DNA of 64,000 nt from Stropharia rugosoannulata. Taxonomy: Eukaryota > Basidiomycota > Agaricomycetes > Agaricales > Strophariaceae. How positions within the stretch are numbered: position 1 is the stretch's first letter; each line of letters begins with the position of its first letter. Under the pieces are notes generated by a model. The model saw only the letters and a program-made list of their open reading frames with translations. It made no database searches and was not told the origin of the DNA. Shown here in pieces: positions 2,306 to 61,849 of this stretch. A program made the position numbers and the translations under genes. The DNA is taken from the NCBI GenBank assembly GCA_028532985.1, contig JANCIK010000005.1, positions 1,060,501-1,124,500 of the forward strand, written 5' to 3'.

Positions 2306-3867
2306 TTAATAATCATCATCTTGTTCTAAAAGTAACTTATGAGACTCATTATTATTATTAGAAACAGAAACAAATTGAGGAAATATCTTTCTATATAGTA
2401 GCTATTAGTTATCTTCACAAAGTATATTTTTAATTAAAATACCTTTTCCACCATTTCAAAAGATCTTGTACACGTTTGGTTGAGGCTGCACTCCGTTCCA
2501 CCTCAAAGTAATCAACCAAAAAATTGTAGAATTCCACAAAACTAAAGTTATTGTGGCTATGTGTCCACTGGGTAGCATCTGTTAAGTTAAATACAAGCTA
2601 ATGCAATATTTGAGATATCAGTTTTGATAGTATATATAATAACTGACCATAACTGCTGCATATGCAATGGATCTGCCTGTAACCTGGCCTGCTATGCCTA
2701 GCAATGCAGACACAGATGACTTTGTACATTTATTGGACTTTTTTGCTCCTTGGGGTTGACTTGATTCATCAATCACAGCATCAGCTGAGGATGGAGATGT
2801 GAAAATAGCAGCATAGACCTGAGTTTTTGTTAAGTACTGCAAGCTTCAAAATAAATACCAGTACAACTGTGATTAACAACTAACCTGCACTAAAAGATTA
2901 TTTCGCAAAAAGCCTTCTTCAATACGCTTGAAATTTGTAGGTTGTTTCGAATACAAACACCGAAGATAGTAGTTTGTATTGATTGCAAAGCCCTCCTTGC
3001 TTCCACGGATACTTGCACGTACCCTATATAGTATACCATTAGTAATTGTATCCATGTAATACTAGACATTGAAAAGTGCACTCAAGATCATCCCAATCAA
3101 ATGTAACAGGGCATAGTAGCCTTCCACACAAGTCATGCTGAATACCCCGGTTTAGACGATCATTTTTGTGTAAAAGAACCTCAGGCTTAAACTGGCTGTT
3201 GATACGAGAGCAAATCTCAGCTTTAATGCGATTAACATCATCACTGCGTGCACTATTAGCTCCATGTTGAAGCTATATGCAAAGGCTATAGTGAGAAATT
3301 TATTGAAAACATTGTAATTTATGGAATAGTTATTACCTCATTAAGATAAGCCATAATAATATCAACATCTTCTTCATCTTTGAGAAGCTGTTTAAGAGGT
3401 GGGACAAGATCCAAGATAATAGGCCAAGCAGCAGCCATTCTTTGCTGTCTAAATATCAACTTCTTGTAAGATTTCAAAGAAAGTATGATAAAGTTTAAAA
3501 GCCATTGAACCTTCGATCAACTTGAGTTTCTTGATTCTCTGAGTTTTGTGAATCAACTTCATCAAGCACAGTTGATATACTATCATATAATGTTGCAATG
3601 CGGCGTATTCCACGCCCTAAAGTAATTGTAGTCCTAATAAATGCTTGAATTAGAGAAACCTAACATTACAAATAAACAAGATTATACAAACCGGACTTTT
3701 CTAGAGCGCTTATTACTGGAACTTAACTGGTCTGTCATTACAGCCAGTTTACACTTTAGAATCTTGATTTGTGTCACTGTGTTAGCAGAATTATCCAAGT
3801 CATTCAAACTGTGGTCTGTTTTGGCCACTTCTAGTTGTGAGTTACTAGGCTCTTGATTCAAAGACAT
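2306..3867 (-). CDS. DUF6698-like protein, left copy, 8 exons, intact
   Basis: I rebuild eight exons: 3867-3692, 3633-3511, 3448-3337, 3272-3082, 3023-2885, 2818-2648, 2597-2443 and 2390-2306. All junctions are GT-AG and all phases close, giving 383 aa. The N-terminus is polar, with a KRSRKVR basic patch. Then come LGRGIRRIATLYD, an LQHGANSARSDDVNRIK block, NRGIQHDLCGRLLCPVTFDWDD, RIEEGFLRNNLLVQ, an IFTSPSSAD motif and SIAYAAVM, ending in an acidic QDDDY tail. This series matches my memory of basidiomycete proteins carrying DUF6698, whose function is unknown. No signal peptide or membrane segment is seen. The right-hand paralogue at 60232-61849 has the same intron positions. No catalytic role can be proposed from the sequence. 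Confidence 0.72.
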
Positions 3868-4517
3868 GGCCTACAGGCTTTGAGGAAACAAGGGAGAGAA
3901 GATGTTAATGTTTGCAATACCACAGTATGCTTGTATTTATACCTCTAATATTTAACTACATGTGCTGTGGAGCTAGTATATATTGTGAATACAAAATTTA
4001 ATAGAGCGCAGCGCCGCAGCATGAAACACGAGTCATTATAAACCATGATGACTGTAACTTAGTTCAAACATTATAAGCGGCTGCTGGAGTGACTACTACT
4101 ACCTCCGAATGACTCGGCACAGGCCCAAATTATGACTCTCTGTTTGACAAGATAATGCATACATACAAACAGCAAATGGTTCGATGTGGCCACAAGTCCG
4201 TACTACTACTAACCGCGACGGTACTGTAATACGTACTTGAAGAATGGACTCAAGATCGACACACGTCAGGCTAAGTAAAAAAAAGGGGTACTTTACATTG
4301 AGCAAACAACTGGCGGCTCACAAACATATGTTTTGGTTCTGCTTGAGAAGATTCGGATGTGCGAAAAAATGTGTGTGTTGACTAGTAGAGCTTGCATACC
4401 AGGAGATGCAAGATGTACGGACAAGAATACTGTTTTATGCTCACAAGAAACTTTTTTGGTGAGAGTGAATCCAACAAGAGAGAAATGAGCTGCGCTCAGG
4501 ATATGTGACCGAGACCT
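3868..4517. other. Intergenic; nothing recognised
   Basis: This is an AT-rich spacer between the start of the DUF6698-like gene and the 3' end of gene W. It may hold the DUF6698-like promoter. No conserved reading frame or repeat was recognised. Confidence 0.4.
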
Positions 4518-7170
4518 TCATGATTTGTTAACAAACGCCAAGATTTCGCTGGCCGCCTTTGCTGAGTTATTGACTGCCCGTCGAACAAGACAATGAGCTC
4601 TTATAACTTTTCGCCATTGCGAGGCATTGCGAGGTCCTGCACTACCTGACTCGAGCTCTTTCAGCCGTGTTTGATATAAGTCTTCTAGAAAGTCGTTCCA
4701 GGTCGGAGATACAACAAGTTCGTTCCACAACGAGGCTTGTGGCCACCACGATAATACTGCTTGTTGGATGCCACGCCCTAGACGCGATGGTATAAACGTC
4801 ACAAACCAATACTAAGTTTCAGACTACTAGATTGATGTTGAATTCACACTTACCTGTATATACCTTGTAGACGCCGCAGATTATGTCTTTTTCGGACTCG
4901 TGTAGATGGTCGTCGACCCGTATCTGCGTATCACCTGAATCAAAGGCTTGGCAGTCCCTATGCAGAGTTGCGCTGCCTGTCGGTCCCTCTAGGACCTCGC
5001 TGAAGCTTACATTTAACTCAATCGATAATCGCCAGATAATTCCGCCCTCTTTCAGAGCGGCACGACCAATCCTGGGAGTGCAAATTAAATTAGCGCGTTC
5101 TTGCTTGTAAAGCTCGTAGTCTGCAGTTGAGAAATTATATGAGGACAACCTGACGCGAGGAATATACACTGGGGCAAATTTATTCACGTGGGATGCAGGG
5201 TCCCTCGACACTAGTTTCAAAGTGAAAAAGCCCACTCCACGATTTAGTAGCTCGTACGCTAGACGGTATTCATTCCATTCTGCGTCTAGGCGCACGACCA
5301 GAAGTGCCAATATGGGGCCTTTTACTGCCAATAACCAGGGTGCAGCTGTACGTGTACCGAATTTGAAGACAAATAGGTCTCCCGGTAGCCTCTGAATTGT
5401 GCTCAGACGCCATGACTTCTTAATGGACTTTTGATGGTTCAAATAGGTCAAATCGTACAATTCGTTTCGAGGGGATGAGTCCAAAAGATATTTAACAAAA
5501 TCAATTGCGGCCTGACCCGTGGCGGATTTGAAGTAGTTATCAGTAACTGATGGAGCCCCACAGACAATGCGAACTATATTTGCTTCTGATTCCACTGCAT
5601 AATTGGGTAGACGCAGGTTAGACCTAGATGTAGGATATATAAATCCGTGGAGAAGATAGAGTATGTTTTCGGGAGAATATATTTCGGGCTCGCACTCCTC
5701 GCTGGGGCGACGAACGCTCTGCACCTGTGATGTTATGTTCATTTTGAATGATGGATTGGACGATGCTGATTCTGGAGGGAATGTAACTGTTGCAGATATT
5801 TCCTGTTCGTTAGTAGGTTTGATACCGCTATTGCTGGTTGAAGCGACAGTAGTTGTAGGGAACATGTCCGGCATACTATCATCTTCATCACTCCAAGCCT
5901 CCTCCTGTAATTCTTCAACGGTCTTCATTCCCATAGCCTCACAGCAATCCCATTCATTGGTGAGTTTGTCGTGATACTTTTGCGCGGCGCCGTAATCACG
6001 CAGGGTTTCTTCATGATCACGTTTATTAACCGCATTCCGTTTCCATACCCCATCCTCTCTTTCCCAAACAAAAACCCTCCTTGGCAGTTTGACCGGTGTG
6101 GCTCCATGCTTTTCTAACTGTCGGCTTTTCCTCTTCTCTATGAAGACTTTCCAGGAGGGCTCATCGGTGGAGAACGGTAAGCTGTTCATTGGTAACAGTG
6201 AAGGCTCCTTGACAAGATAAGATTTTGCTATTTGTAATAAGTGTGCTGGAGGCTTCCAGCTACCCCAGACTGCCGGATTACCACGGAGGTGGTACTCCTC
6301 TCTAGCTCCCCAAGGATACCAGATAGGTATATTCCATCACACAAAAAAATCTATAGCTGGATGCTGAAATGTTTCGCCCATAATTTTCAAAAAGACGCCT
6401 GCTCTGGGATGATTTTCAGAGAATAGGGCTAGCTCTTGTCGGATGCCTGCAGCAACAGGAGCGTCGTAAAATTGAAGTAGAGCGTGCATCCACACAGGTA
6501 CTGGAGTAGCATCGCTTTCGTCATCGCATGTTTGCCCTACTGCGATTCCGAAAGAAACCAATCCCATCCAAAGAGCAAACCAATTTCGACAACGCTTCTC
6601 GGTAGCCCTGAATTGGCTCGTATACTGGTAATCAGCAGCGAATGCAACCGATGTTGACACCACATAATCCATATCAGGAATGCTGTATGCAGAGCAGAGA
6701 CGTTTAAATATGTCTTGCATGGTTTGTTCAGTGAGTTTCCATTTCATAACGTCATGAGGATTTGCTTGCTGTCTACGCGCCTTCTTGGACGTTTTTACTG
6801 TCATTGGATTCGAACGAAGTTGGTGAAATGGAACGATATCGAAATTTGGGTTTTGGGGTATAAAGGGTAGATATGCCATTTCTTTGACCCACCAAAGTGG
6901 TTGCTGTATTTCAGCGACATCATCTTGATTAGCATTTCGAAAAAAGGGTTTTCCATCATTGCACGGTAAACGGGGAACATGAGAGCTATTTGGAGAGTAG
7001 TAGATGTCACCTCCCAGAACAATAGCCCTGCCACGTTCTGAGTGGATTTTTTCCGGTTGGTCCAGTAGCTTTCGTATTGCAAGGTGGTATTTACGAGGAA
7101 CATAATCCGGCCTAATGAGCTCGAGTGGCAGCGATGGCGAAGACGATGACATATCCTCAAGTCTGCCCAT
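4518..7170 (-). pseudogene. Gene W: large basidiomycete protein of unknown function with one in-frame stop
   Basis: A frame runs from the ATG at 7170 to 4864 and is joined by a GT-AG intron (4863-4812) to a last exon at 4811-4518, giving about 866 codons. A single TGA at 6339-6337 interrupts it. The protein continues in the same frame directly after the stop (WNIPIWYPWG), so this is a nonsense change, not a shift. Recognisable stretches include WFALWMGLVSFGIAVG, HPRAGVFLKIMG, the WYPWG motif and a C-terminal LSWWPQ block with a basic QWRKVIRAH segment. This order recalls a large uncharacterised basidiomycete family; I know no function for it. It lies between the DUF6698-like gene and gene D and has no partner in the right module. 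CGA to TGA by C-to-T transition would explain the stop, but that is inference. Confidence 0.65.
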
Positions 7171-8711
7171 AAGTTTTTAAGTGATGTTGGATGGATGGGG
7201 TGGGTTGAATGTGGGTTTGCTTACCGTTCTGACAATGATAGAAAAGTGCCTGTGCCTCTATCTTTAAAACAGCGAACTCGCAGCGATTTGCCCAAAGGCT
7301 AAGACAGGTAGACCGGAACGAAAGAAAACACAGAAGTACGAAGACCTGGAAGCCAGAGTCAGATTCGTAGGACTGGTAGTAGTAACAGACGAGATTTGAA
7401 TTTGAATGTCAGCGGGGGTAAGTTAAGTGACTCTCTTTGGAACCGCAAACTCTCAGCTATTTGGCCGAAGGTTAGGACAGGTGGACCGAAATGAAAGCAA
7501 ACACAGAAATACGAAGACCTGGAAGCCAGAGTCAGATTCGTAGGACTGGTAGTAGCGCAGACGAATTAATCGCAAGCGAAGCAAACATAGAATGTCACCG
7601 TGCTGAAAGCTAAGGTCCCACGGTCTAAATGTTCCTTTTTATCCAGAGACAAGCATCGCCAAATACTGGAGACGGGGGAGCTTTTGGGATCCTGCTGACC
7701 AATTCTGGTACGATAACAATGAATCTTTATGTAATCTCTTCTTACATAACAAGATAAGATAGTGCTCAGAAAACAGCGAAGTTACGCAACAACTCGGAGT
7801 CGGAATTCAAGGGGACAATAGCTACCCTACTACCATTAACCATTTGCTACCCTGACTTTTGTTATCTCATTTAACTACTATGTCAAGGGAAACATCTCTT
7901 AACGGAGATGTTTCGCTTGGATGTTCAGTAAATAAGAGACTTCTGAAACATAATTCCCGAAGCTTTTGTGAAGCTTTTATAAGTTGGTAGTGCTGCGGCG
8001 TGACTGCTCTCTTTTGAGTCCTTAATCAAACACATAGGCGTTTAATTACAATTCAATTACCTTAATTCTTCAAGCTTTCTGCCCTTGTTTGGGCAGCCGG
8101 AACTAGCTCGATCAACTCCGACAACCTCCGACGACTGCTACCGCAAGACGGCAGCGGTCCAATGAAATGTTTACTTTGCAATTACTTCAGGAAGTTGACT
8201 TCGGGCAAACTTTGGGTTTAATCTTGAAGCTTAACTCAGGCTTATTATTATTATATTGCACCACTATTAACTTATTATGCCCATCATGTATCTTACATGT
8301 ACCCCATATTCATGAAGTCAGATACACGAAATATATTGTCTATAAAAATACAAGCCTGAGATGATTAGTTGCACTGGCGGAGACTAGGATTTGACTAGGA
8401 TGACCAACAAAGGAGATACCTGCACATGCAGCGGCTTATCAATTATATGAACGGCCCGAGTTCATAAGTTAGGCCGTTCCCAACGGACCCCATCACATGT
8501 TCTCTTGCTGACATTTGGCTGACATATAGTTAACGCATAGTACTTCAGTGCTGCAAACAGCGGTTTACTATATGAACAATTAGACATCCCCAAACATAGT
8601 AGACAATACCAAGACAATACATAGCAATACACGTTACAGTAATAAGAAATCCTGGCACTAAAGACATAAATAACGTTGGAATAACCAGCCCATGAATAAT
8701 GTGAATCGTGA
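7171..8711. other. Intergenic spacer with a diverged direct duplication
   Basis: No gene is recognised. The stretch holds a direct repeat described separately (7268-7567). The rest is AT-rich, with short open frames only. Confidence 0.4.
7268..7567. repeat. Two diverged direct repeats of about 125 bp
   Basis: The segment at about 7268-7393 recurs at about 7441-7567. Both copies contain the run GAAGACCTGGAAGCCAGAG followed by TCAGATTCGTAGGACTGGTAG, and both begin with a similar GCAA/GCGA-AACTC...CAGC-ATTTG lead. The offset is about 173 bp. The pair lies 100-400 bp upstream of gene W, so it may be a duplicated promoter segment. Confidence 0.7.
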
Positions 8712-9793
8712 TTAAACGTCCACGTAGAGTTGGGATTGCTTCAACAACTGTCCGATTATAGCATTAGTTTCGTCCAGAGAAGACCGGCCTCGAGGCGTAA
8801 CATTGAGCCTGGATTGAATACTGCATTCAATCTTTGACTGCACGGACCGCTGGGAATATTTGAAGGATGGGTGAAAACGCGTACTGTAGGGAAGACGGGT
8901 ATCGAGTCCATAAAGATCGATGCGGCGATGTTTACCTTTTTCGCACTCTTCTTGTATGAGGTGTATGCTCCTGTCGACGTCTTCCATGTTTAAACTATCC
9001 CTCTGGTAGATTTGTAACAGAGGGATCACTTTCAAATGCAGCCAGTAGTCCAGATCAAGTAATACGGCAGATTGACGAAGAGACAAAGCATTCCGCGCGT
9101 CACTGGCAGCAACAAAGACATCTTCCAAATCTTTGAAACCACATTGAGAAAGGAAAGTTTCAAGCTAACAATGGTGTTAATAAACTATAGTAAGCCGACA
9201 GAAAATAGAGAGCTTACATTTAGATGATTAGTTACGCTTCGCTTTTCCAATTGCGCCTTATACATTTCTAAGGCAATATTGGCACTTCCCATGAGTCCTG
9301 GGGTAAGGCATAAAATGCTGCCGTCGTCCTTATCGAAGTCGGAACCGGAATGGTCACTATTACTGTCGCTGCCTTCATCGTCCTTTAAAACATTAAGGGA
9401 CGTTAGCATAGAACATAAATACTGAAATAGTTAGGAACGTACATTCCCAGTGTGCAGGCCGGGTTCACGCCCACTGTACAATGTAGCTGAGTCAGATACT
9501 CTAGAAAAGCTCTTATCATCCGTGTCAGAGGCGGAAGTTGTACTTGACGTCCATGCGTAGATGCGGTCCCTGTCGAAATGCGAAGAATTAAGTGAGGAAT
9601 GGTCAGCTTGTTCGACATCCTTGGGGTCCTTCGTCAGGGCGTCCGAGTCGATCATTGCAGAGCTGAGGGATACCCTGTATCCCTCAGAAGTCATGAAGTC
9701 GATATACATCTTGTCTTCAAAGGTGGGCGCAGACTCTGCTTCCGTTGAAGGCCAGGTATTGGAATTTACAGTGAGTTGGTGGCAAGCAGGCAT
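8712..9793 (-). CDS. Gene D, left copy: unknown protein, 3 exons, intact
   Basis: Exons 9793-9443, 9382-9218 and 9164-8712 join with GT-AG introns to give 322 aa. The N-terminal exon is Ser/Asp-rich and probably disordered. The middle exon carries an acidic stretch and an ALEMYKAQLEK helix-like segment. The last exon holds the conserved core: EDVFVAASDARNALSLRQSA, then VIPLLQIYQ, then KHRRIDLYGLDTRLP. The right copy (58019-59102, 323 aa) has the same three-exon plan and the matching core EDFFVTASDAKNAASLRRSA and HRRVDLYNLESRLP. No known domain is recognised and I propose no function. The start is the first ATG giving an open first exon. It lies 288 bp from the Gypsy-1 insertion, which separates it from gene C. 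Confidence 0.7.
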
Positions 9794-10075
9794 ATTGAGG
9801 GCAGATGAGCAATGGGGAGTTCATGGGAGAACCATCATCTTAGAACTCACCAAATACAATGGAGGATCATACACGTAATCATGGGAATGACAAATTCTCA
9901 TTACTTATTTGATGTTTTGTTCTCAGTTGACACTGACGCTGTCAGGACGCTGTCACCACCGGGGATTTGCGGCTCAACTCACACTGCAGGGTGCTCAGAG
10001 TCAGAGGCCAACTCGAGATAGAAAAAACATTAGGGTCGCCATCATACCGTCACTGAATAAAAGCTGTCACTTGGA
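9794..10075. other. Spacer between gene D and Gypsy-1
   Basis: This is probably the upstream region of gene D, cut off from its former surroundings by the retrotransposon insertion at 10081. Nothing else is recognised. Confidence 0.4.
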
Positions 10076-10080
10076 GTACT

Positions 10081-10632
10081 TGTTATGAAACACGCACCGT
10101 CTTTTCCTTTTTCTTTCACCCTTATCTTATCGCGATATGATCCTTTCTTGTCATTCCATCTTATCTTATCATATCGCCCCTTTCCGTTTACTTAAGCAAG
10201 CAACATTGCAGTTGTATTTCTACTTACGAACCTTCTCGATGGAGAGAGAACAATAACTACTTCTCTCTCTCTCTCGCACCCCTGGGACCTATCCCACACC
10301 CGTGGCAAAGGAACCCAATTACCATTTACTTCTTACCGCGCCCCCTTTCCCCTTCGGACTCCGTGTGCGCGCACTACTATTTATACTATACGTCGATAGG
10401 TATATAAGATGTAGTAGATACCGAGCTAACTCTCCAGTTAGTTCTTTAAGAATCCAACCTCTTATACCTTTCTTCGACTTAGGGCTCATAAGTCGGCTAA
10501 CTCTCTCTCCACGACTCTGTCTCATCGCGTTGATAAGACATTCGTCGAGAGATTGCTTCCAGAACCTCTGAACGATCGAGAGATTAGAACAATTGCTTAG
10601 GACTTATAGACTCCGTCTTCGAAGTCCTAACA
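10081..10632 (+). repeat. Gypsy-1 5' LTR
   Basis: The 552-bp direct repeat begins TGTTATGAAAC and ends CCTAACA. It differs from the 3' LTR at only two positions that I could find, both C here and T there, and both in TCG context (near 10131 and 10175). It contains a CT-rich tract, a TATATAAG box and the inferred transcript start. Confidence 0.95.
10401..10408 (+). promoter_or_regulatory. TATA box of Gypsy-1 LTR
   Basis: TATATAAG lies 35 bp upstream of the A at 10436 that begins the segment complementary to the primer-binding site. That spacing suits a TATA box directing initiation there. The same box is at 17908-17915 in the 3' LTR. Confidence 0.65.
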
Positions 10633-10644
10633 AAAGAACTAACT
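10633..10644 (+). promoter_or_regulatory. Self-priming primer-binding site of Gypsy-1
   Basis: The 12 bases directly after the LTR, AAAGAACTAACT, are the exact reverse complement of AGTTAGTTCTTT at 10436-10447 inside the same LTR, just downstream of the TATA box. In Tf1/sushi elements the 5' end of the mRNA folds back onto a site beside the LTR and serves as the reverse-transcription primer. The position and perfect pairing here fit that mechanism. I saw no tRNA-type TGG primer site. Confidence 0.8.
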
Positions 10645-10792
10645 CCCTCATTGTTACGAGTCCTACCTCGTAACAACCCGATACCACGACACCACGGCAA
10701 CCAGACCCTGGGCCAGCAGATCAACAACCCCGACTGAGTCAACTAGGACCTCAGAATCGTACTCGACAGAACCAGACAGATTCCTACCAAAC

Positions 10793-11986
10793 ATGGAAGG
10801 AGAAGGACCCATGTTCGAGCAACCCGCCGAACAGGCACCACCACCGCCCGTCACAGCCGAATTCTTGGAACATTGGCACCGGGCAAATGAATTAATGGAA
10901 ATCAGAACTCGCGACCTAGAGGAAAGGGAGCGAAGATTGGCCGAGGCAACGATAGCCAGGACCCAGGCGGAAACCATCCGCCCCGAAAAGGAAGACAAAG
11001 TGAAGATACCGTTGTTTAACGGAGCTCCAGAGAAATGTCGCGAATTCCTCATTAACCTGAGACTTCACTTCGCATCAAACCCTGGAAGATACACCGACAG
11101 TGCCTCAAAGATCATTTTCGCCCTCCGACATATGCAGGACGGAACCGCAGGACCATGGAAGAACAACTACATCGCCCAGAACACAACCGTGCTCGACAAC
11201 CTCGTCATTAGCGACTCGTACGCACACTTTAGGGACAAGATCGAGGCGGCGTTTGCAGGAACTAAACTCGAGCTAGATGCCGAGCAGAAACTAAGGGAAC
11301 TCAGACAAGGATCCATGCCGATCCAAGAGTTTATCACGAAATTCGAAATCCTGACCGACCAGGCCAGGATCACCGACAACAGAAGAAAAGTCGACCTCTT
11401 CTGCAAAGCGCTTAACCCCGCTGCCTGGAAGAAACTCCTCTTCCACGAATCCCCACCCGAAACCTACGCTGAATGGAAAGAGCGATCCATCAGGCAGGAG
11501 CGCAATTACAAACAAGCGCGCGAGCGAATGAACGAGGTCAAACACATGACCTACAGACGAACCAACAACGGCGGATACAAACCCGCCAGGGACCCCTTCG
11601 CGATGGACGTCGACGCCATCAAGATCAAAAAAACCAGGGAGCAGAATGAAGAGAAGGCCGTCGCCGCCCTCTCCTTCGCAGAACGAGGGGAACTCCTCCG
11701 CAAGGGGGCATGCTTTAATTGCAAACAAACCGGGCATCTCGCAAAAGATTGCCCAAAGAAAGCTTCGTCCTCCAACGCAAACCGAACCACCAAACCATGG
11801 TGGAACAACGACAAGAAAGAAACCCCAAAGAGAGCCGAACAACCGCAGAAGTTCAATCTCAACTCCGCCAAGAAATTTGTCAGACAAATGGAATGGGAGA
11901 ATGAGAAAGACGCCACCGCATTCTTCAAAGAATGCGCCAGAATAGCTACCGCCGCACCAGACTCCGACGACGAACAGGATTTTTAA
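10793..11986 (+). CDS. gag: Gypsy-1 Gag polyprotein
   Basis: The 397-aa capsid/nucleocapsid protein would build the cytoplasmic particle and bind element RNA. A Retrotrans_gag-like core lies at about residues 75-235 (PLFNGAPEKCREFL, FALRHMQDGTAGPW, QEFITKFE). A CCHC zinc knuckle, CFNCKQTGHLAKDC, sits near residue 303. The C-terminus is charged. The ORF ends with TAA inside a T5A5 run, and pol begins in the -1 frame at that point. The ATG lies 160 bp behind the LTR. No breaks were seen. Confidence 0.93.
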   Translation: MEGEGPMFEQPAEQAPPPPVTAEFLEHWHRANELMEIRTRDLEERERRLAEATIARTQAETIRPEKEDKVKIPLFNGAPEKCREFLINLRLHFASNPGRYTDSASKIIFALRHMQDGTAGPWKNNYIAQNTTVLDNLVISDSYAHFRDKIEAAFAGTKLELDAEQKLRELRQGSMPIQEFITKFEILTDQARITDNRRKVDLFCKALNPAAWKKLLFHESPPETYAEWKERSIRQERNYKQARERMNEVKHMTYRRTNNGGYKPARDPFAMDVDAIKIKKTREQNEEKAVAALSFAERGELLRKGACFNCKQTGHLAKDCPKKASSSNANRTTKPWWNNDKKETPKRAEQPQKFNLNSAKKFVRQMEWENEKDATAFFKECARIATAAPDSDDEQDF

Positions 11987-11990
11987 AAAG
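11980..11990 (+). promoter_or_regulatory. Candidate -1 frameshift site at the gag stop
   Basis: The gag codons GAT TTT TAA are followed by four more A. Slippage back by one base on the T run gives TTT TTA AAA and enters the pol frame. This would be a stop-in-A-site slippage, not a textbook heptamer. The alternative is that one T was lost from a run of six, by mutation or consensus error, and gag-pol was one continuous frame as in Tf1. Confidence 0.45.
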
Positions 11991-12762
11991 GAGAGACAGT
12001 TCAATGTATGTTTCTCCGGATTTTTCGATTCACAATGTACAAGTAGATAGGGAACGAAAATACACGACCTTACCCATAAACTTCCCCATCGAAAGTATAA
12101 GTGACAAAATCATTGAAAATAACGCCCTCGTCGACTGCGGAGCAGAAGGATCGTTTATCGACCAAAATTACGTGCGAAAGAACAAAATCGAGACGACGAC
12201 GTTGGACCAACCCCTCAAAGTACGGAACGTAGACGGAACACCGAACAAACGAGGGACCATCAGGCGTAAAGCGGTACTAACATTTACAGCACTAGGACGG
12301 ACATTCACGGAGGAATTCTTCGTTACGGGACTCGGCCGACAGGACATAATTCTAGGACACCCATGGCTTAACAAATACAACCCAGACATCAACTGGGTTA
12401 CGGGAGAAATTTCCTGGAGACAGGATAAGACAACTACGGCAACGGACAACGGACAAACTGGCAACAAACGGGAACTACTGGAAACAGTCATCCAGACCGC
12501 GACACTCGATCACTCAGAAGCGGAAACATGGATACGCGCTAAGACCACCATCTCCCATGAACTGGCAAGAGACGACAAACCGGCTAAACCGCTTGAGGAC
12601 ATGATACCAGAAGAATACCACGATTTTCTGGATATCTTCAGAAAACAAACGGCTGATCGACTACCGGAAAGAAAACCCTGGGATCATAAGATCGAACTAA
12701 AGGACACCTTCGAACCCAAGTCATTCAAAATTTACCCGTTGAATCCTCGAGAAGAGGAGTAG
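11980..12762 (+). CDS. pol: Gypsy-1 Pol, N-terminal part: aspartic protease
   Basis: The -1 frame overlapping the gag stop encodes a retropepsin with the active-site motif VDCGAEGSFID (about residue 55 from the shift point) and the partner motif DIILGHPWL. The residue after the catalytic Asp is Cys, where Ser or Thr is usual; Gypsy-2 shares this. The segment continues to the start of the reverse transcriptase (RKPWDHKIELKDTF, IYPLNPREEE) and then meets a TAG created by a deletion. An ATG at 12004 could allow separate initiation, but frameshifting from gag is the simpler reading. The protease would cut Gag and Pol during particle maturation. Confidence 0.88.
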   Translation, partial: FLKRRDSSMYVSPDFSIHNVQVDRERKYTTLPINFPIESISDKIIENNALVDCGAEGSFIDQNYVRKNKIETTTLDQPLKVRNVDGTPNKRGTIRRKAVLTFTALGRTFTEEFFVTGLGRQDIILGHPWLNKYNPDINWVTGEISWRQDKTTTATDNGQTGNKRELLETVIQTATLDHSEAETWIRAKTTISHELARDDKPAKPLEDMIPEEYHDFLDIFRKQTADRLPERKPWDHKIELKDTFEPKSFKIYPLNPREEE

Positions 12763-15506: not shown

Positions 15507-15511
15507 ACAAA

Positions 15512-15838: not shown

Positions 15839-15918
15839 AATAGATAAGATAACGAAAACCTTTAAAAAACTCACGAAGGGAAACCCCACCTCTCCAGTGA
15901 GCCCTCACCACGACCAAC

Positions 15919-50948: not shown

Positions 50949-51695
50949 ATGGATGGAACCTTGTTTGCATATAAAACGGAAGAGAATTTGCTCTTCGGTT
51001 GGTCTGCAGTGCAAGATTGGGCGAGATCGCTGTCTTCACAGAATCGCATCGATGAGGTAGGGGTCGTCATTGGAAATTTAAGAAGAATTTGATGCAGTTA
51101 AGCATAGATTTGGCTTTGGGAATGTTATCTATGGCATTTAACCGATGGAGAAACACTTGCCACCATCAAGGCCGAAGGGGGGTACATCAATTGTCCGGAA
51201 ATGCTGCATTCAATCTACTGGCAATTCCTGAGTTCCAATCTAAGCGATTCAATGATGCATGGAGGTGGACTTGGCCGGGAAGGATGGGCACTGCCCCTCA
51301 ATCGCGCGGGCCCAGCGACCTCCAGATGCCTCTTAGTCGAAATTATGGAAATTTATTTCAAGAAGGTTATGCACCAAGACAATACCGATACGATCCAATT
51401 CATTATCTCGGACGGTGGTCAATACGTCAAGGCACATGCCCGCGCGCCTTTCCCAGACGGCCTGGACCACAAGCGTGTCAGGATTGGAAGTAAAGTAAGT
51501 GCTGTTTGGAAGCCCGAATTCAGCTGGTTGAGCGCTAGTAACTAGATGGTTTTATTCACACCATCTGTTGAGCATGGATCATTACTCCTTGACATGCGCA
51601 GTGCGAAGGTATTATTCGTCGCAAGTTACTCGAGAGAAAATGAAGAATACGGATCGCATCGGAGGGGCATGATGGGCTGTGATTCAAAGAACTAG
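50949..51695 (+). CDS. Gene A, right copy, 3 exons
   Basis: Exons 50949-51056, 51108-51494 and 51546-51695, all phase 0, give 214 aa. It matches left gene A in order: LFGWSAVQDWARSL, WLWECYLWHLTDGETL, YWQFLSSNLSDS, FIISDG, KAHARAPFPDGLDHKRVRIGSK, VEHGSLLLDMRSAK. The start is uncertain: the left copy has about 25 more N-terminal residues, and similarity continues upstream of this ATG for a few codons before a stop. Divergent from Plavaka-R, as on the left. Unlike the left module, there is only one A gene. Confidence 0.7.
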
Positions 51696-53535
51696 CAGTA
51701 GCAAGAACAGATGTAGCGCATTAGTTGGAATGATGCTCTATTTGCCCGGTGGGGTACCATAAGATGCTGCAGCCGCATCAAGGAGATTGAAAGGCTAGCC
51801 GACTTTCAAGTTTGGGACCGGGCATGAAAGACTCCCACTAATTGATAGCGCATTCTGCAGCGTTGCCAGAGAAGCAATACTGTTACTAAACACAGTGGTG
51901 GACATCTCTTGAGATGAAGCAGAGCGAGAAAAAGAGCCATTAAGATAATGTGGTGTTGAGCAAGTAGGGAGTCTCACCTCCTTTTCATCTCGAGCTCTTC
52001 AGATATCTCTGCCTGAAGTTCAGAGCATCGAATGACCAGAGTTATGAAGATGATGCGCCCAATATTTATAATTAAAAAAAGGAATGGCCAGTGTCGATTC
52101 CGCAGACACATCCTACAGGAAACAGGGCGACCTTGGCGGCGCGGCCAGCTGGCCTCCCTTTCTTCCCGGGGCAAACCTTCCTTAGCCTTCTGCTTGAGCA
52201 AAAGCACTGGGTGGGTACGGCCTTGACGTGTAGGATATGAGGAGTGCCGAGTGCGAGTGAACACGCCGCGCTAGCACGTATGTGCTGGCTCAGCGTAATG
52301 CTTCCTTCTTCTAAATGGGCGATCAAGTGGACGTCCTGGCTTGTCTTGAGGCTCTAGTCGGTAGGGTCAAGCAAGGCTTAGGAATGGCTGGAGAGAGCCA
52401 ACCTCCTGGCCTGCCTTTCAGCGGTACTGACGCATGAGGCCGGCAGTGGGCCGTCTCGACTTGAGAGGTCTAAAGAATGCGAGGTGGCGGATACGGGTGA
52501 AGGAGATGAATGCGCAGACGGGATCGTTATCGCGCGGTAGGGTCAAGCAAGGCTTAGGAAGGGCTCGAGAGAGCCAACCTCCTGGCCTGCCTTCAGATTT
52601 TAGTCAAGGCATTGGGGAAGATAGCCTCCGGGTTTGAAAATGCGGGAGCTCACAAACCAACACGTGACTCGTCCAGCATGCTTATCACTATAGTGGTAAG
52701 CAAATGGGGCCAAAATGGGGCTTGCTAGGTCAGAAGGCAGCCACGCGAGTGCATGGATTCTGGTATTTTGGACAGATATTTAGTGCTGTTGCATCCTACC
52801 GTGACTATGTCAAAAAAAAAAAAATTAGAAGCAGATTGCAAACAAGATGCGAAGATGTGTGGTCCGGGCCCGGATTTCCCGGACCGTCCCCGCAGTGCTA
52901 GGCGAGCGCTTATCATCCTTGCCTGACAATCGCCCGAACAGACTTCTAATATGCTTTGAAAATGCTCGCAAGTTAGGGCATAGATGAATTCAGACTGTCA
53001 CCTTCCTCGCCGGACCCCTCTGCCTTCGCTCAAGCTACCTCCAAGGGTGCCTCTTTTGAGCTCCTCCCGAGCTGCCTCAGGGCACACCCGCGCCTTGCTT
53101 GAAAGTGCCTCGAGTGCCAGCATTCTTGCCCCGCGACTCCTTTTAAGTCATGCTGCGCTCTGCGCTGTGAGAAGCGTCTGCGTATCTCTAGAGCACCCTT
53201 CGAAGAGGCCGAAAAGTAGGCCACGCGAGTTTCAGCACTTGAGCCCCTCATATTTCCTTTGATCTGCAACTTCTAGCTCAGTCGTAGGATCAAAAGAAAT
53301 GTCCTTCCGCGTGCCGCAGCTGGTCGTGCAAAATCATAGCTCTATGGTGAGCACAGTGGCAGGCCAGGTCAGTGCTCCCTTGCCTCTCATTTATTTGATT
53401 GGAAAACGTTTTCAACGCCTCCAGGAGAACTCGCGCTTGGGTCCCTCTAAAACCACTAGGAATAGCTCTGTTTACACTACACCTGACGCTACGGACACCG
53501 ATCGGGGCCCGGGGCTAGGGCAAGCCAATAGATAT
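51696..53535. other. Repeat-containing spacer
   Basis: No gene is recognised. It holds an inverted relative of the 62-kb minisatellite (52361-52595), a stretch with similar words near 52100-52260, and a 12-base A run at 52812. A plus frame at 53299-53826 is antisense to gene B and is not believed. Confidence 0.4.
52361..52595 (-). repeat. Inverted relative of the 73-bp minisatellite
   Basis: Two units (52361-52430 and about 52538-52595) read, on the minus strand, as AGGCAGGCCAGGAGGTTGGC ... CCTAAGCCTTGCTTGACC. The sequence between them (CGCATTC, GGCGGATACGGG, GATGAATGCGCAGACGGGAT) is the reverse complement of the flank at about 62630-62695, so unit and flank were copied together. Confidence 0.75.
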
Positions 53536-54452
53536 TCATTCCAAATCGCTAGTATCCTGTGCTCCCGTCGAGCAACCCTTGCTCTGAATCAGGGCGATGC
53601 AGCCCTTTACACTACCCAGCAAATCGCTATCGCCAAAGCCTTCATCGTAATGGCTCCTTGCCACTCGCTTTGTCATATACCGACCACACCGTGTGCACAC
53701 ATGGAATATACTTTCAAAATCCTGCATAGGGAGCCCCCCCGCGTTATCGGGATCATGAGCGTCGAGCAATCTCATCGAAATTTGGGCTCTTCTTGGTGCT
53801 GGATTAAAAATATCCTGCTCGCCTGATATTGCTACTGCAGTGAGCAAAATAATTGTGAATTTGCGTTCTCTAGCACTGACCAGTTATCTCAGGGCATTTA
53901 TGATAAGGGACTGTCCTGGCCGTCACGAAATTAAAACACCCCTGGCACCTCACGAACAACTTCCAGAATTCGTCCTCGGGTAGCCCGTACGCAGGCAGCC
54001 AATCAAGGCTCAATAACTGCAAAAAACGGGTCCTGTGTTGCTGCAAAGGACTAAACATGGATGCCGCCTGCGCATTGAAGAAGCCAGCTCTCCTTTTCAA
54101 ACCCAACGGCTCCTCGAATTGCAACGGCTCTACTGCAAGCTTGCAAACTGTATTTTTGTGTATGTTGGCCTTGAGATATTGGTGTAATAGTCCGGCTCTC
54201 ACCTGGAAATTTTATTAAGTCATATTTAACCCCTGGCCGTTTTCCACGATTTTCATGCTGGACGCTGGTATGACCGTGCCCAGACATCGGACTAGGAGAT
54301 GCCGGCGAGCGGGGTAGCATATAGAATCCTCCTTTCCTCTTTCTTACCCTCGGGCGAGGCTGAGGCATTCCTGGCTCCATGCCGGGCGTAGCGATGAGCG
54401 GGTCCGGCTTTCCTTCACCATAAGATGCTCGCTGTTCCTGTTCATTTAACAT
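53536..54452 (-). CDS. Gene B, right copy: putative zinc-binding protein
   Basis: The main exon ends at 53881 and joins 53822-53536 by a GT-AG intron that the left copy lacks. Kept features are LLSLDWLPAYGLPEDEFWKL, the cluster CQGCFNFVTARTVPYHKC, ISMRLLDAHDPDNAGG and CTRCGRYMTKRVARSH. The N-terminal part (54452 to about 54200; RKRKGGFYMLPRSPASPSP) aligns with the left copy (RRQGGYYIMPPSPVSPSP). It is one base out of frame with the rest around 54170-54230, so an extra intron or a frameshift lies there. Confidence 0.65.
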
Positions 54453-55065
54453 ATAGAGGTAACAATTTAAGAAGTGCGAAGCTTCGAATCACCAAGTGTG
54501 CTAAGGGCTAGCTACAGTTGTACGTCTTATGTATACTTAGGCAGAGGCTGAGCGCGCAGCAGCATGTTGCGAGCCCATCTACAGTCAGGGATGAGTCCGC
54601 TCTCAGGTTTGCGAGTCACTGACTCATCCCGCAGCTGCCTAGGCTGGCAGTAAAGGCGATCTTTCCAGAAACTAGCTACTAGCGTGTTCATTGCAGCACA
54701 AGCTAACTATTGGAAGCGCATAGGTAAATAATTACTGGATTGGTCCAGTGAGTGATATGGTCGGTCACAAACCACAAATCAACAATCAAACAAATGTCTT
54801 TTTGAAACCATAACAGTCCCCTCTATCTTTTTGTAGTCGGGCCCATCTGTATTTGCACTCAGTACCAGTTGTAATAATAAGTGTGTACTGCTCTAGGGGA
54901 AAGCACTTTTTAACTCAAGTCAGCATAAACAGATTGAATCAATCTATGGGATGTTATTGTCAAAAAGGGGTACATGATGTCCTAGTACACGCAGCCAGTC
55001 ATAGTCACAAATGGTAAATACAGAGGCGGGCTAGAATCGAAGATGGTGACAACCAGACCTGCTTA
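54453..55065. other. Spacer between genes B and C (right)
   Basis: Nothing is recognised. An inverted pair, TCAGGGATGAGTCCGC against GACTCATCC, lies near 54590-54630 and may form a short hairpin. Confidence 0.4.
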
Positions 55066-56832
55066 CTAAACACCAGCCAGACCAAGGCATTTGATCCTGC
55101 GAATATACTCAGCCAGTAAGTTACTAAGGTATTCAAATTCTTCTTCAGAGATCAGGCCCATTTGCTGCGCTGCCGTCAGAAGCCTCCGAGTAGTTAAGTT
55201 GGAAGGCTGGGGTAATTTCAGGTTTGGGCGAATGCAGGCCAGGAGGAGCGCTACGGGGCTCAAGATCACGGAAGGCCTACGCAGGGGCTGGGACGACGCC
55301 AACACGACGATCACCTGCTGGATAATCCTAGCGTGCAGCCTTATGGTAAAAACAAGAGGCTGGGAGAAAGCGTAGTTGTTCAAAGTTTGTTGCGCCTGCT
55401 CTATGCCGTCGGCACTGGCCAAAAAAATATCGGTCTTCAACGAAAGCAACATCAGGAATGGGAACAGTCTATAGCAAATTATTGCACTCACAAAAGCTGC
55501 CGCTAGCGCAAGTACGGTCGATGGTAGGGCTTCCGTTGATTGCGGAATTGCGGTCAAGGCGTCAGCGCCGATGAACTGAACCATGACCCTAAACAGCTGC
55601 TCAGTAAATGGAGATATGTGAATGGACGATATTCTAGAAAGCAACTTGGAAGTGGGGGAAATCTTGTAGCTGGTCTTGACTTTGCGACCGGATCCAGATA
55701 GGTCCCACAACAATGGCAGGTCCACTGACTGGTAGGCGCCGGAAGCTCCGCTCTGACGGCATGGCTCTTTCCCCCAGGCAAAGCTGTGAGTATATTGCAG
55801 TTTGGTCGCGGCGTCGTGCATGGTTTCCAGAAGTTTATTTGAGAAACCCTGGATCTATAAGATTTTATTCAGCGCCAAAAAAACGATCCAAAGAGCCAAA
55901 TATCAATCCTTACAGAGTAGGTCACCTCTTCGACGCAGTGAACATATAGTGTGTCTTCGTCCGGTTCCCCAAAGCGCGAGCTGAGGTGGGGCAACCAACG
56001 GCCGTGCCTCAATGGGCCTTCCTCTGGCACCAACTGCTTGATAACGTTTGATTCGCTGACAGCCAGCCATAACGCGCTGAAGTCATAGTTAAGCTTGAGG
56101 GCGATGATAGTTTCGACTACGATGAGCTAGTTAAAGCAATGAGTCACTGCAGCCTTGTGCAAAATAGGCTGATAACGTACTCGAGTCTGTTTGGGCATTT
56201 TCTCCCCCTTGAGGACATACTTGAGCAGCGTATCTCGGGAGCCGATGAAGACTTCGGAATAGAGCTCCAGGATAAGTGGCGCTTTTTCAGGATCAATGTT
56301 GAAGTCGTTGTCGTGAAGTTTCCAATCGATTGGGAAATGAGGCTTATTGTCGTACAACCCGGTCGTCCAGGGGTTGTCAGCCATACAATTGGCTTGACGC
56401 CTTATTTGTTCGAAGTACTCGACAAGCGGCCTCAGCGCAGGTTCCGAACTTGCTTCGAGCTGCTTGATCTTGTACTGCGGAAGCCAAATTGTAAATACTA
56501 AACAAAAGCCTGGAGTGGCAGACTCGTACTGGTAACGTAAAAAGAAGTTGCAGGGGTTCCTTGGAATCCGGGGCAAGCGGTGGGAACGGGCTGCCGCTGA
56601 TGGCGCGTCGGGTCCCTTGGGGTGAGTCGCGCAACGATGATAAGGTGGAATACGACTCCATGATAGTAGATACTGGAGCCTCGGGGCTTGTGGAAAATGA
56701 ATCTTCTTCGAACCAATCGATGTTGGGCACAAGTGACAAGGTTCCACCGGGCAACGAAGTGAGAGAGGAACCACAGGCTTGTCGGAGGACATCTGAAGAG
56801 CTGGCTTCAAGGGTTGATAGAAAGGTTTGCAT
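55066..56832 (-). CDS. Gene C, right copy: unknown protein, 5 exons, intact
   Basis: Exons 56832-56530, 56474-56181, 56126-55914, 55854-55492 and 55434-55066, all phase 0, give 513 aa against 509 on the left. The alignment is weak but colinear: LRPLVEYFEQIRR versus LPSLTHFMESVRR; WKLHDNDFNI versus WVLRENNYGSGI; LNYDFSALWLAVSES versus MNYDKHFRRLWIKARDS; LFRVMVQFIGADAL versus LFRALVEYLGSETL; TDIFLASADGIEQAQQTL versus ADRILASCAGYPEGLEAV. The C-terminus differs. Keeping five exons and length despite this divergence suggests selection on the protein. Function is unknown. Confidence 0.72.
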
Positions 56833-58018
56833 AGCGAGTACTCTGGGCTTTCAGGAGGATACCTGTTGCGGCGAATCTTGGACAAGGTATGCTTTTAATA
56901 CAGTTCGGACTTGCTATTACTAGGTAGTAGTTTGTCGATATCATGGCCAAAGCTGCAATATAGGCCAACCAATACACTGGTAGTAGTAAGGCTCTGTGGA
57001 CCAGACGGACTTCTTGTATCAGTAATTTCCCACTTGCAGAAATTTTGTTATTCAACACTTCCTGAAACTTTATGGAATGTCCTGCGAAGTAGGTCATGGC
57101 GCCTCGTTCTTGAAACGTGCTGTCGCAGATCGGTCTTGCCGTGTCGCAAAACTGATGGTAGATTCTATTAATTTGCTGATAATGAGTATCATTACTAGTA
57201 CTATTCCAGGCTGGGACTAGTGAACTGGGTTTTGTTAAATCATTCTTTTCATGATGCGGGTCCGGGGACTGGCATGTAATTAATTGAAGTCCTACGGTGT
57301 AGACACATGATTGTTGAAGCTTGAAGCTGAATCGCTGGTGCTGGCAGTTGAAGGAGACACGGTAGTAGTAAAAATAGAAATCACCTTCTACTATCTGCAA
57401 TCGATTGCGCATTAGCCACAATCCACGGGCCACGACCCTTAAACTAAAATACTTGAGAAGAACTATTTCTGCACAGTCAGAACCCCATGTCTGCGGTGCA
57501 AGTCGGGAGCAGAAGCAACATACCGCCTTTCCACCTGGTGGTCGTTTATGCCGCGCCCGCGGCCCGGTATCCACTGATTGCCGATCAAAACTTGTCCTTC
57601 GGCTTATGTAGTATTGTTTATTATAAGTAAGAAATGAAATTTAATAAAGAAGAGACGATTCTATCATACCATGGCCCAACCATGGCCGTAACTCTCCAGC
57701 ATATCTGATTCTATGACCTGTTATAATTCGAACGCATGTCGAGCCCGTGACCCCAAACTCGATTATGACTGATTTTTATCGATAAGTTGCCCGCCAGTGA
57801 ATGTTTGCCGCTTGCAGTTAGCTGTGGCTCAACTCAGTAGCTTGAGCGTGAGTATATAATATAATTGCGGCACCTCGGCCATCACTTGACTGGTCATCGT
57901 ATTGGTGACTTTTTGAATGGATTTATTCCATAACTTAGGGCAGGCAAAGTCCATTTGCACCTGTTCCACTTGTCGTACACCGCCGCAAACATAACATACC
58001 GCCTCACACTAGCAGGAA
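56833..58018. other. Divergent spacer between genes C and D (right)
   Basis: Between the divergent starts of C and D, the position occupied on the left by Gypsy-1. A minus-strand open frame at 57574-56807 overlaps the first exon of gene C in another frame and lacks motifs, so it is not called. A TATATAATATA stretch at about 57855 may belong to the gene D promoter. Confidence 0.4.
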
Positions 58019-59102
58019 ATGTCAGTCAACTTCTGGTCAAAGTACGCAGCCATGCGACAGCGTGCACTGAAGCTTACAGGACGACCCTCCTTCTTCTCTT
58101 TTTCTCGGGAAAGCACCGACTTCCCCAAGTTCCCGACTTGCGTTCCAAATCGAAGCCATGTTGGTCCTCTTGTCAGTCTCTCAGAGTCTGGCGCCACCAG
58201 TGAAATCAATGTAAGGGACTGTCAGCATACGAGCCCGACAGAGCCTAACTCGACGGAGTCGGAGCTGCGCTCTGGGATATCAGACCAAAACTCCAATCCG
58301 CATTATCTGGAACCGGAAGCCGCTTTACAGGGTCCGGCAGCAAATACAGCAGATAACTTTGATATCACTGCCAGCAATGACTTCATTCAATATTTGTCTG
58401 ATGTAAGCTACTGATAAACTGCGTCGAAATTTTACTAATTTCAATGGCCGTTTCCAAAGACTAATCGCAAATGCGGGTGCGGTGCTGGCGCACTAGGCGC
58501 AGATAGCGCATATTGTCTTTCCCCTTTACTTAAGGCAGCTGTGGATGACGCATTACAAGCCTATAAAGACATGCTTCAGGAGCATTCTTTAGATGACCAA
58601 TGCGCTGTATGTCCTTTTGTTGTCCTTCAGGATCATATATATACTGAGATTATCGAGCTAGATTGAAGCATACCTAGCTCAGTGCTCCCTACAATCTTTG
58701 GAGGATTTCTTCGTTACAGCCTCTGACGCCAAGAATGCGGCGTCCCTCCGCCGATCTGCTATCTTGCACGATGTTGACCACTTCCTGCTAAAAATCGTCC
58801 CCCTTGTTCAAGTCTACCAGAATGATTTTGCTGCTCTAGGTGATATCGAAGAGAGCATTGATCTATTACGAAGGGAAGTTAACAAGCACAGTCATCGCCG
58901 TGTTGACCTGTACAACCTGGAAAGTCGTCTTCCTGGCGATACTCGCTTCCCTCCTTCCTTTATGTATACCCACCAAGATAGCCAGACTAAAGTCGAAGAA
59001 CAGAGGGAGAAGCGTCCCATGGCTCGTTATTTTTCTCGCCAATTCATTGAGGATGGCTACGCCATCAACGACCAAGACTTCATGTCATTCTGGAAGAAGT
59101 AA
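58019..59102 (+). CDS. Gene D, right copy: unknown protein, 3 exons, intact
   Basis: Exons 58019-58402, 58460-58606 and 58662-59102 give 323 aa, against 322 for the left copy. The middle exon starts TNRKCGCGAGALG and contains DDALQAYKDMLQE, matching ALEMYKAQLEK on the left. The last exon holds EDFFVTASDAKNAASLRRSA, VPLVQVYQ and HRRVDLYNLESRLPGDTRFPPSF. The N-terminus starts with an aromatic/basic segment (MSVNFWSKYAAMRQRALKL) and then becomes polar. No known domain. It is followed by the DUF6698-like gene on the same strand. Confidence 0.72.
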
Positions 59103-60231
59103 CTTCCGGCGCTTTCCCTATTGGTCAGTCCCAATTCTCTTTGCTCTATGAATGGTCCTGATATAATTCACTCCGGTGTCACTACCTTTGCTTTACCTCT
59201 CATGTTGGTGGTATAGCTAAGTAATATCATCACTCTCTGCAATTTCAAGCACATCAACTATATCAGTTTATCGTTCATCCACCTGTATGCTTTTTATTTG
59301 CTTGTATCCGTTCTCTATGGTATCTCTCCCCCTCCTGTGCTGTATTGTCTTGAAGTTAGCTATGTTATTTATCTCTCTTTTACCCCTTTCCTCTTCCACG
59401 TGTTTGTACTCATTATCCCCGTTTAGCAAATATATTTTTGAACTTGCCTCAAAATATCGGACCAACTTCAAGAAACACCTCAACGCTTTGAAACATAGTT
59501 AGTAGTATGATCTCGAGCCTAGCAAGGCTTTTCTGTCAGCACTGACTCAGCTGTGGGATTCTATAGCATAATCTGCCACGGCAGCACAGCCTGGCCCAAT
59601 GATCCGCATAATATTCTGGATCCTGCAGGCCTGGACCATGAAGGATTTTATGGGCAGGACTCATTGTACATACACCGTCATTCACTCCTTTAATATGCAT
59701 ATGCTTTAATCTTGGGCTTTCTTAGGCGTCTTCTCTCTTGTTCGAACAGGTCGGTCATCACACAATCCTGAAGTTGGTTGACGATATGATATGACAATGC
59801 AGCGCTAGCAGGCTCTTTGTGGGTGTTATTGGGGTGTCCTGGGCTCTGGGCCTCTTGTTTTCAAGGTCTACAACTTGCTCTGGAATCTGGTATCCTCTGT
59901 GAACTTGTGTCCATAAGCTACCTCAAATTTACTCGAGTGGCAGGACTCCCTTCAATTCAAACCGAGCCGTTGACCTAAATTGCTCAGATTCCGGCATTAT
60001 TTACTTGCGGGTCACAGCGAACAGCAGCGGCTGCGGCGCATGCTCAACCTGAAATTTTAGTACACCTGCTAGTACTGGATCATAGTACCGCAGAACATGC
60101 CGTACTTGCCTTCCGAGCTTATAAACATTTGCATATGGCGGCTACAACGGTCTTATAACCTGCAACCCATTTCAATCATTGCTTACTTTGTGACTGCTCC
60201 GATCTCCTGATTTTTCAATCGGTGCTTTCAA
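59103..60231. other. Spacer between genes D and DUF6698-like (right)
   Basis: In the left module gene W fills this interval. I looked for any piece of W here and found none. Only AT-rich non-coding sequence is seen. Confidence 0.45.
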
Positions 60232-61849
60232 ATGTCCAGAAACACAAGTGCCCAATCAGCGAGCACATCACACAGTGGTCTCAGCCCACAGCAACTGCAA
60301 CCCTCAACAAGTGTGGGCGACGATGATGGCACATCCAGTAGTAACGATGCCGAACCTATGTTGGATCCAGAGGACGCAGCGAGCCAAATCAAGTCTTTGA
60401 AGCGCCAGTTAGCAACTATGTCAGAGCAGATAAACTCGCGCAACAAAAGGTCGAGAAAAGTTCGGTGGGATATTCAATGCTCTGACTTGAGTTCTCTTCG
60501 GTACTCACGCTGTTATATTTACAGGACAACAATGTCATTGGGGCGAGGAATACGCAGAGTAGCTACACTATATGATAATGTTGCCACTGTACTTGATGAA
60601 GTCGATGCTCAGAACTCGGAGCCTGATGCAATCTATGACCGCAGGTTAGGTTAATTTGATCTGCTTTCAATCGGCTTAAATCTGTCTAATTTCTTTTTTG
60701 TATATCTAGTCGGCTGCGTACTGCTGCAGCCTGGCCAATAATCTTGGATCTTATTCCTTCTTTGAGGCAACTCCTCAAGACGAACAAGACGTTGACATCA
60801 TAGTGAGCTACTTAAATGAAGTATAACTATACAGCTACATCTACTCTGTGTATCAACTAATTGTTCTATCTACTCTATTAGCTACAACATGGAGCCAACA
60901 GTGCCCGTAGCGACGATGTTAACCGCATCAAGGTTGAAGTCTGCTCCCGAGTGAATAACCTGTATAAGCCAGATATTCTTCTTCATAGAGCTGACCGAAC
61001 AAACCGGGGCATTCAACACGACGTATGTGGAAGACTTTTGTGTCCGGTAACATTTGATTGGGATGACTTGGAGTAGGTTTGCTTGAATCACTCATATACA
61101 CATAGCCTCTAACATGTTCACTTCTAGAGTGCGAGCAAATATTCGTGGTAGCAAAGACGGCTTCACGATCAATACAAACTACTATCTAACTTGTTTATAC
61201 TCAAAACGTCCTGCAAATCCTAAGCGCATTGAAGAGGGATTCCTCCGCAGTAATATTTTGGTACAGGTTAGTAATCTGCCTATCGCTTAATATCATCCAA
61301 TTCTAATGCTTAGTATGAAAGATATATGCAGCCATCTTTACTTCCCCATCTTCAGCCGATGCTATTGTCGACGATGCCTGCCAGCTTCAAGTACTGAGTC
61401 CAGTTAAGTCTAGCAAATGTACCAAGGCGTCAGTGTCCGTGCTTCTAGGAATGTCTGGCCAGGTTACTGGCAGATCCATCGCATATGCCGCAGTTATGGT
61501 GAGTGCCTTGAAATCTCAACAAATGATTGTTAATGCCTTAATAAATTATACCAGCTCGTGTTCAATTTGACCGATGCGTCACAGTGGTCTCACAGTCATA
61601 ACAATTTCAATTTTGTGGAGTTCTATAATTTTCTGGTTGATTATTTTGAAGAAAAACGCAGTACAGCCTCAGTAAAACGAGTTCAAGATCTTCTTGGATG
61701 GTGGAAAAGGTAGGGTCATATATACCTTTCAAGATTGAGATGATTAACTTCGGAGTTTTTTTAGCAAAATCTTTCCTCAATACATAGCTGTTTCTAAAGA
61801 TAGTAACGAATCACAAAGAATTCTTTTAGAGCAAGACGACGATTACTAG
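60232..61849 (+). pseudogene. DUF6698-like protein, right copy, one-base frameshift
   Basis: Eight exons (60232-60464, 60525-60644, 60710-60820, 60882-61072, 61128-61266, 61322-61498, 61555-61709, 61765-61849) match the left copy in phase. Exons 4, 5, 7 and 8 have exactly the same lengths. Exon 3 is 111 nt instead of 112: at 60779 AAG-GAC has become AAGAC, which shifts the frame before the DVDIIVSYLNE segment. Motifs are LGRGIRRVATLYD, LQHGANSARSDDVNRIK, NRGIQHDVCGRLLCPVTFDWDD, FTSPSSADA, SIAYAAVM and the QDDDY end. The N-terminus is longer than on the left. If the missing G is a consensus error the gene is intact (about 403 aa). Confidence 0.75.

Follow-up and report, generated by a model that had tools for sequence, protein, structure and literature searches.

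Two mirrored gene modules in Stropharia rugosoannulata as separately inserted, probably giant DNA transposons of the PlavakaB kind

Among fungi, giant, multi-gene, cargo-carrying mobile elements are known as the Starships of the Pezizomycotina, whose captain is a tyrosine recombinase (DUF3435). In plants, the CACTA and Pack-TYPE elements, with a transposase clade related to Plavaka, capture fragments of host genes. Here we analyze a 64,000-bp stretch (the window, C5:1060501-1124500) of the 48-Mb, 20-contig genome of Stropharia rugosoannulata, in which two modules of genes in mirrored order each include a Plavaka transposase gene. According to the main text of a recent study, Plavaka belongs to the CMCT clade and PlavakaB has CATCA..TGATG ends and target duplications of 2 to 3 bp (Kojima 2025, PMC12730594). 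Two papers report Plavaka elements in Marasmius oreades (PMC8290104, PMC9674265).

The elements described here share with PlavakaB, as its main text presents it, a Plavaka transposase, a TGATG 3' end, 2-bp duplications, and an Agaricomycete-type host. They are unlike it in having mostly a CATCG 5' end, at least six additional gene families, and slices of host genes. Their size is 30 to 41 kb (about 30 to 34 kb without a long terminal repeat (LTR) retrotransposon insertion), set here against the main-text description of PlavakaB and not against published family lengths. The C(2)C motif of the CMCT clade is CPRC in five of five transposase copies, in which H(3-4)H was not located. Pfam scans covered 55 protein pieces, a part of all open reading frames, and gave no match to a TET/JBP dioxygenase; PE-type TETs were reportedly found by structure only, as the main text of the CMCT study has it (Kojima 2025, PMC12730594). 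Like Starships, these elements are giant, multi-gene, cargo-carrying, and fungal, but they have a Plavaka (DDE-type) transposase and 2-bp duplications, and the scanned pieces had no Pfam match to the tyrosine-recombinase domain of the captain. Unlike CACTA and Pack-TYPE elements, they are fungal, with the fragments confined to one bay of full-length multi-gene elements. A literature search whose scope excluded subscription journals and supplements found no Starship with cargo in Agaricomycetes and, with Repbase likewise outside its scope, no mention of DUF6698. The papers matching giant transposable elements in Basidiomycota concern other subjects, as judged from their titles and the starts of their abstracts. 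As far as this search reached, the elements are new in their size, in the conservation of a multi-gene backbone, and in their captures.

Gene order in the window and across the genome

An earlier note on the window had proposed that six gene families (DUF6698, D, C, B, A, and Plavaka, reading inward from each side) form two inverted, colinear modules. A self-tblastn search of the window bears out the mirrored order and strands. Five of the six families are directly homologous between left and right: DUF6698 (2642-3783(-) and 60373-61504(+)), D (8748-9164(-) and 58662-59075(+); 45% identity over 139 aa by BLASTP, E = 6e-43), B (21610-22308(+) and 53584-54356(-)), A (24499-25128(-) and 50910-51539(+)), and Plavaka (25578-29676(+) and 50391-40105(-), the right one split by an LTR element). 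The two C genes (~19158-20959(+) and 55069-57640(-)) gave no direct match at E<=0.01 and are joined by tblastx through b1, a copy elsewhere in the genome, which matches the left gene at 2e-31 and the right one at 6e-4 in three colinear pieces; the right gene also matches copy c1 at 5e-52. The homology claimed for the D and A pairs holds, and for the C pair it is supported by way of b1. The Pfam family Plavaka (PF18759) exceeds the cut-off on both sides (2.6e-16 left, 2.3e-16 right), as does DUF6698 (PF20414), at 1.6e-15 in an exon of the left gene and at 9e-14 in a genome search on the right (60888-61070). The scanned pieces of A, B, D, and W, a further gene of the left module, matched no Pfam family over the cut-off.

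All comparisons between loci are made within this one genome, and the counts from genome searches are lower bounds. Searches with Plavaka, B, D, and A yielded at least 52 Plavaka-like loci, selected by hand from 92 match rows after partial exons and short weak matches were dropped, together with at least 26 B loci (56 rows), 34 D loci (34 of 35 rows), and 42 A loci (42 of 42 rows). For W there are at least 24 loci (45 rows), and for DUF6698 at least 69 positions, about one per gene, among the matches listed of 184. Within 30 kb of a Plavaka match lie 40 of the 42 A, all 26 B, and 28 of the 34 D loci; together these surroundings cover 6.5% of the genome at most. The linkage test across the loci of this single genome is strongly positive. 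At 27 of the Plavaka loci, counting the two in the window, the transposase shares 58% identity or more with the right window copy. Upstream of these, on the expected strand, are A at 21, B at 24, D at 25, DUF6698 at 23, and W at 18 loci (24 DUF6698 and 19 W positions entered the tally). B is followed by D at 24 loci, the order A, B, D is present at 19, and A, B, D, DUF6698 at 17. At the other 25 Plavaka loci W was never found upstream on the opposite strand; a distant relative of W is present 12 kb downstream of one of them (C1:2470291). In copy c1, W sits between C and B. Since numerous loci of the genome repeat this arrangement, the clustering is not due to chance, as the earlier note had argued. 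The mirrored finding is real and more significant than first stated, and the unit is the single module.

Ends, copies, and insertion sites

The ends of the elements could be fixed because near-identical copies exist elsewhere in the same genome. Copies a1 (C1:1576358-1610098, 33,741 bp) and a2 (C13:98336-132092, 33,757 bp) lie on different chromosomes, as do b1 (C1:3335166-3367055, 31,890 bp) and b2 (C2:4003142-4035480, 32,339 bp), and they are 99.6% identical in family a and, over their main blocks, 98.6-98.8% in family b; the c copies, likewise on different chromosomes, are 99.7-99.8% identical over the main blocks of the part compared. The left window element begins to the left of the window at -5941, where TA precedes CATCAGAG, and ends at 34956, where TTTTTTAGTGATG is followed by TA. 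The right element has its 3' end at 35248 (CATCAGTAAAAAG on the + strand) and its 5' end, with a TT duplication, to the right of the window at 71266. The left element (+ strand, 40,898 bp) accordingly occupies -5941..34956, with 1..34956 inside the window, and the right one (- strand, 36,019 bp) occupies 35248..71266, with 35248..64000 inside; the stretch 2306-61849, earlier taken as the unit, is replaced by these two. In eight of eight elements with ends read, there is a 2-bp target duplication (CA in a1, TA in a2, TG in b1, CA in b2, TA in the left and TT in the right window element, TC and TG in a further pair on C5), a TGATG 3' end, and a CATC 5' end.

We consider, with a probability of about 0.9, that a module represents a single giant DNA transposon of the PlavakaB kind. 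The exact ends, the 2-bp duplications, the dispersed near-identical copies, the recurrent gene order, the purifying selection on W and D, and the slices of host genes in the bay are shown directly. From 5' to 3', such an element comprises the CATC end, X in some cases, DUF6698(-), W(-), D(-), C(+), B(+), A2(-), A1(-), Plavaka(+), the variable bay, and the TGATG end. The Plavaka transposase would cut at these ends, with insertion at 2-bp staggers. Accessory roles in transposition or anti-silencing may fall to DUF6698 and the rest of the backbone, and host DNA may enter the bay as filler during break repair. Several points weigh against this interpretation. The published CATCA 5' end is found in the left window element only, the other seven having CATCG. 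A search with the 5'-end pattern returned nine sites, eight at expected ends and one at none of the 27 loci, and the reversed control pattern returned four. The full A-B-D order is missing at 8 of the 27 loci, and the 58% identity cut that defines them was set after the table was seen. The evidence for mobility consists of copies within one genome and not of polymorphic empty sites, and AlphaFold models of A and B (predicted local distance difference test scores of 34.0 and 35.6) are unusable.

The window elements stand tail to tail, with 291 bp of a host gene between them (34957..35247, - strand; coding 35045-35245). This spacer contains the 3' portion of a gene for a short-chain dehydrogenase; when a single TT copy is counted, the reading frame of the gene is continuous from the flank beyond 71266 into the spacer. 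The upstream piece matches PF00106 at 1.3e-15 (profile 52-160) and the spacer piece continues it (profile 163-187, 0.0035, below the cut-off alone). The right element interrupts this dehydrogenase gene.

The mirror symmetry about a 291-bp centre might point to a composite element or an inverted duplication, such that both modules moved or arose together. A second inverted pair lies on the same chromosome, with 5' ends at C5 3387960 and 3388147, 186 bp apart, and under uniform insertion the chance that two among 27 elements fall within 300 bp is 0.45%, while two such pairs exist. However, the duplications at the window differ (TA/TA versus TT/TT), and the D and A proteins of the two modules are only 45-50% identical. 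The other pair is head to head instead of tail to tail, also with two different duplications of its own (TC/TC and TG/TG), and most of the 27 loci are without such a partner. A single composite unit is rejected on account of the different duplications, and a shared movement or origin of any kind is improbable. The pairing consists of two separate insertions: the modules are independently inserted, distantly related DNA transposons and not halves of one unit. Since transposon insertions are known to cluster, the close pairs are only a hint of target preference. The members of the head-to-head pair have similar search scores, suggesting that they are near-identical copies.

Two other explanations fare worse still. 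A duplicated, ordinary, non-mobile host gene cluster would account for the conserved order and for several genes without known mobile-element domains, but it is very hard to reconcile with CATC/GATG ends that are exact and accompanied by 2-bp duplications at scattered sites, with an interrupted host gene, and with a transposase at the centre. Remnants of an integrated large DNA virus using a Plavaka transposase, to which the large size of the elements and a number of long genes lacking Pfam relatives might point, are just as improbable, given that a viral contig collection yielded no confirmed relative of either W or the transposase and that no viral hallmark exceeded the cut-off among the 55 pieces scanned with Pfam, a part of all open reading frames. 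On the preferred reading as giant transposons, the window elements arrived by separate insertions of opposite orientation, the right one into the dehydrogenase gene and the left one just behind it. In the left element W is broken by an in-frame stop and an LTR element has inserted; in the right one the LTR insertion is in the transposase gene.

Backbone genes and the variable bay

The earlier note had named gene W and a second A gene on the left as the only differences in gene content between the modules. Sequence searches show both to be real, but the differences extend to the 3' bays and to gene X (946 aa), which lies near the 5' end of the right element, outside the window. Copy c1 carries X as well (61% identity over 695 aa to that of the right element), again as a long orphan frame near the 5' end. 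No similarity was found between X and W. Neither Pfam nor the PDB has a match to W, the PDB has none to B or X, and the one Pfam match of X is at chance level (0.18). At 19 of the 24 loci found, the open frame of W covers 785-895 aa, and two of them have a stop inside the matched stretch. The ratio of nonsynonymous to synonymous change (dN/dS) is 0.12-0.13 for W between families a and b and 0.24-0.52 for D in the 7 of 10 pairs that are computable; W and D are under purifying selection. Between families, synonymous change approaches or has reached saturation, and the lineages are therefore old.

DUF6698 accompanies Plavaka at more distant loci as well. At 10 of 10 loci of 34-43% transposase identity, the two genes are divergent, on opposite strands and 1.3-2.4 kb apart; at least four of these loci are recent copies of one another. 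Among 15 loci of 48-54% identity, 12 have DUF6698 within 40 kb, five of them upstream with the strand reversed and seven downstream with the strand unchanged. Among the matches listed, 58 of the 69 DUF6698 positions are within 40 kb of a Plavaka match; such surroundings make up 8.7% of the genome at most. Because it adjoins the transposase divergently at all 10 of the most distant Plavaka loci, DUF6698 looks, from its genomic position, like a core transposon gene. We infer that the ancestral arrangement was DUF6698 plus Plavaka, and that the genes now between the two were acquired by the giant elements.

The bay occupies 29686..34956 (+) in the left element, where similarity to copy a1 is short only, and 35248..40099 (-) in the right one, as delimited by the reading of its end. 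Within the latter, a 756-bp slice of an arrestin-like host gene (37214-37969) is 95% identical to C3:3018617-3019384, with abrupt limits. An open frame of 589 aa or more is present at the C3 locus (Arrestin_C 0.0063, below the cut-off), and a relative of the right bay (91%) is found at C6:455834-459099. Pieces shared by the bays of b1 and b2 match C1:1657048-1658466 (97%; Arrestin_C 0.004, below the cut-off) and C12:2009559-2012056 (91-96%; GmrSD_N exactly at the cut-off). A further piece of about 885 bp in b1 matches C4:3270242-3271128 (99%; CBM21 2e-23) and is absent from b2, its sister at about 98.7% identity; its junction in b1 has a shared GC. This slice is consistent with filler DNA gained after the split of b1 and b2. 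Transfer probably ran from host to element; of the host loci, the one on C3 was read and the others are known as coordinates. For two deletions in the b1 bay, intron loss was ruled out, the lost stretches not being GT..AG. Copy b2 also contains a segment of about 960 bp (C2:4017823-4018781) with 228-bp inverted ends, absent from b1, which is probably a small inverted-repeat transposon.

On balance we lean slightly towards the broader proposal of a class of giant Plavaka transposons in mushroom-type fungi. These would be independent of Starships and would combine eight or nine conserved backbone genes, with DUF6698 as the core second gene, and a bay that repeatedly acquires pieces of host genes and disperses them across the genome. 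The elements described here give a mobile identity to DUF6698 and to the long orphan families W, X, and A-D, and show that a Plavaka (CMCT-type) transposase can accompany a multi-gene load of more than 30 kb in fungi. With near-identical copies and a recent capture at hand, capture and mobility are directly testable.

Gene extents and retrotransposons in the window

In the left element, the DUF6698 gene extends over 2280..3788 (-), with DNA similarity to copies a1, b1, and c1, and is followed by W at 4518..7416 (-), in which open frames 4822-6336 and 6340-7176 are separated by one in-frame stop where b1 has an 818-aa frame. Next come D at 8715..9893 (-; frame 8715-9164), C at 19158..20959 (+), which matches a1 and b1 by tblastx, and B at 21469..22311 (+; 281 aa), with CxxC and HxC motifs seen by eye. 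A2 (23508..23888, -) and A1 (24350..25128, -), both placed by sequence searches, precede the Plavaka gene (25578..29685, +). In the right element, the LTR-split Plavaka gene occupies 40100..50392 (-), with A1 at 50910..51683 (+) and B at 53584..54371 (-), both from self-tblastn. C lies at 55069..57640 (-), D at 58016..59130 (+; frame 58662-59099), and DUF6698 at 60027..61857 (+).

Each element contains a Ty3/gypsy-type chromodomain LTR retrotransposon. The left one (10081..18139, +) encodes RVT, RNaseH, integrase, and Chromo domains and has LTRs of 99.6% identity and the target duplication GTACT; the right one (41550..47751, -), recognized by its domains and LTRs, lies within the Plavaka gene, with LTRs of 100% identity and the duplication GGAAG. 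With different sites and their own LTRs and duplications, both insertions are real, recent, and independent. The gene order predates them, as had been proposed, but the colinear unit to which this applies is one module and not the mirrored pair. The left retrotransposon has an additional 550-aa open frame (15901-17550) downstream of pol that matches no Pfam family over the cut-off. The right element also carries 73-bp tandem repeats at 62268-62632 and 52357-52631, which are related inverted copies 10 kb apart.

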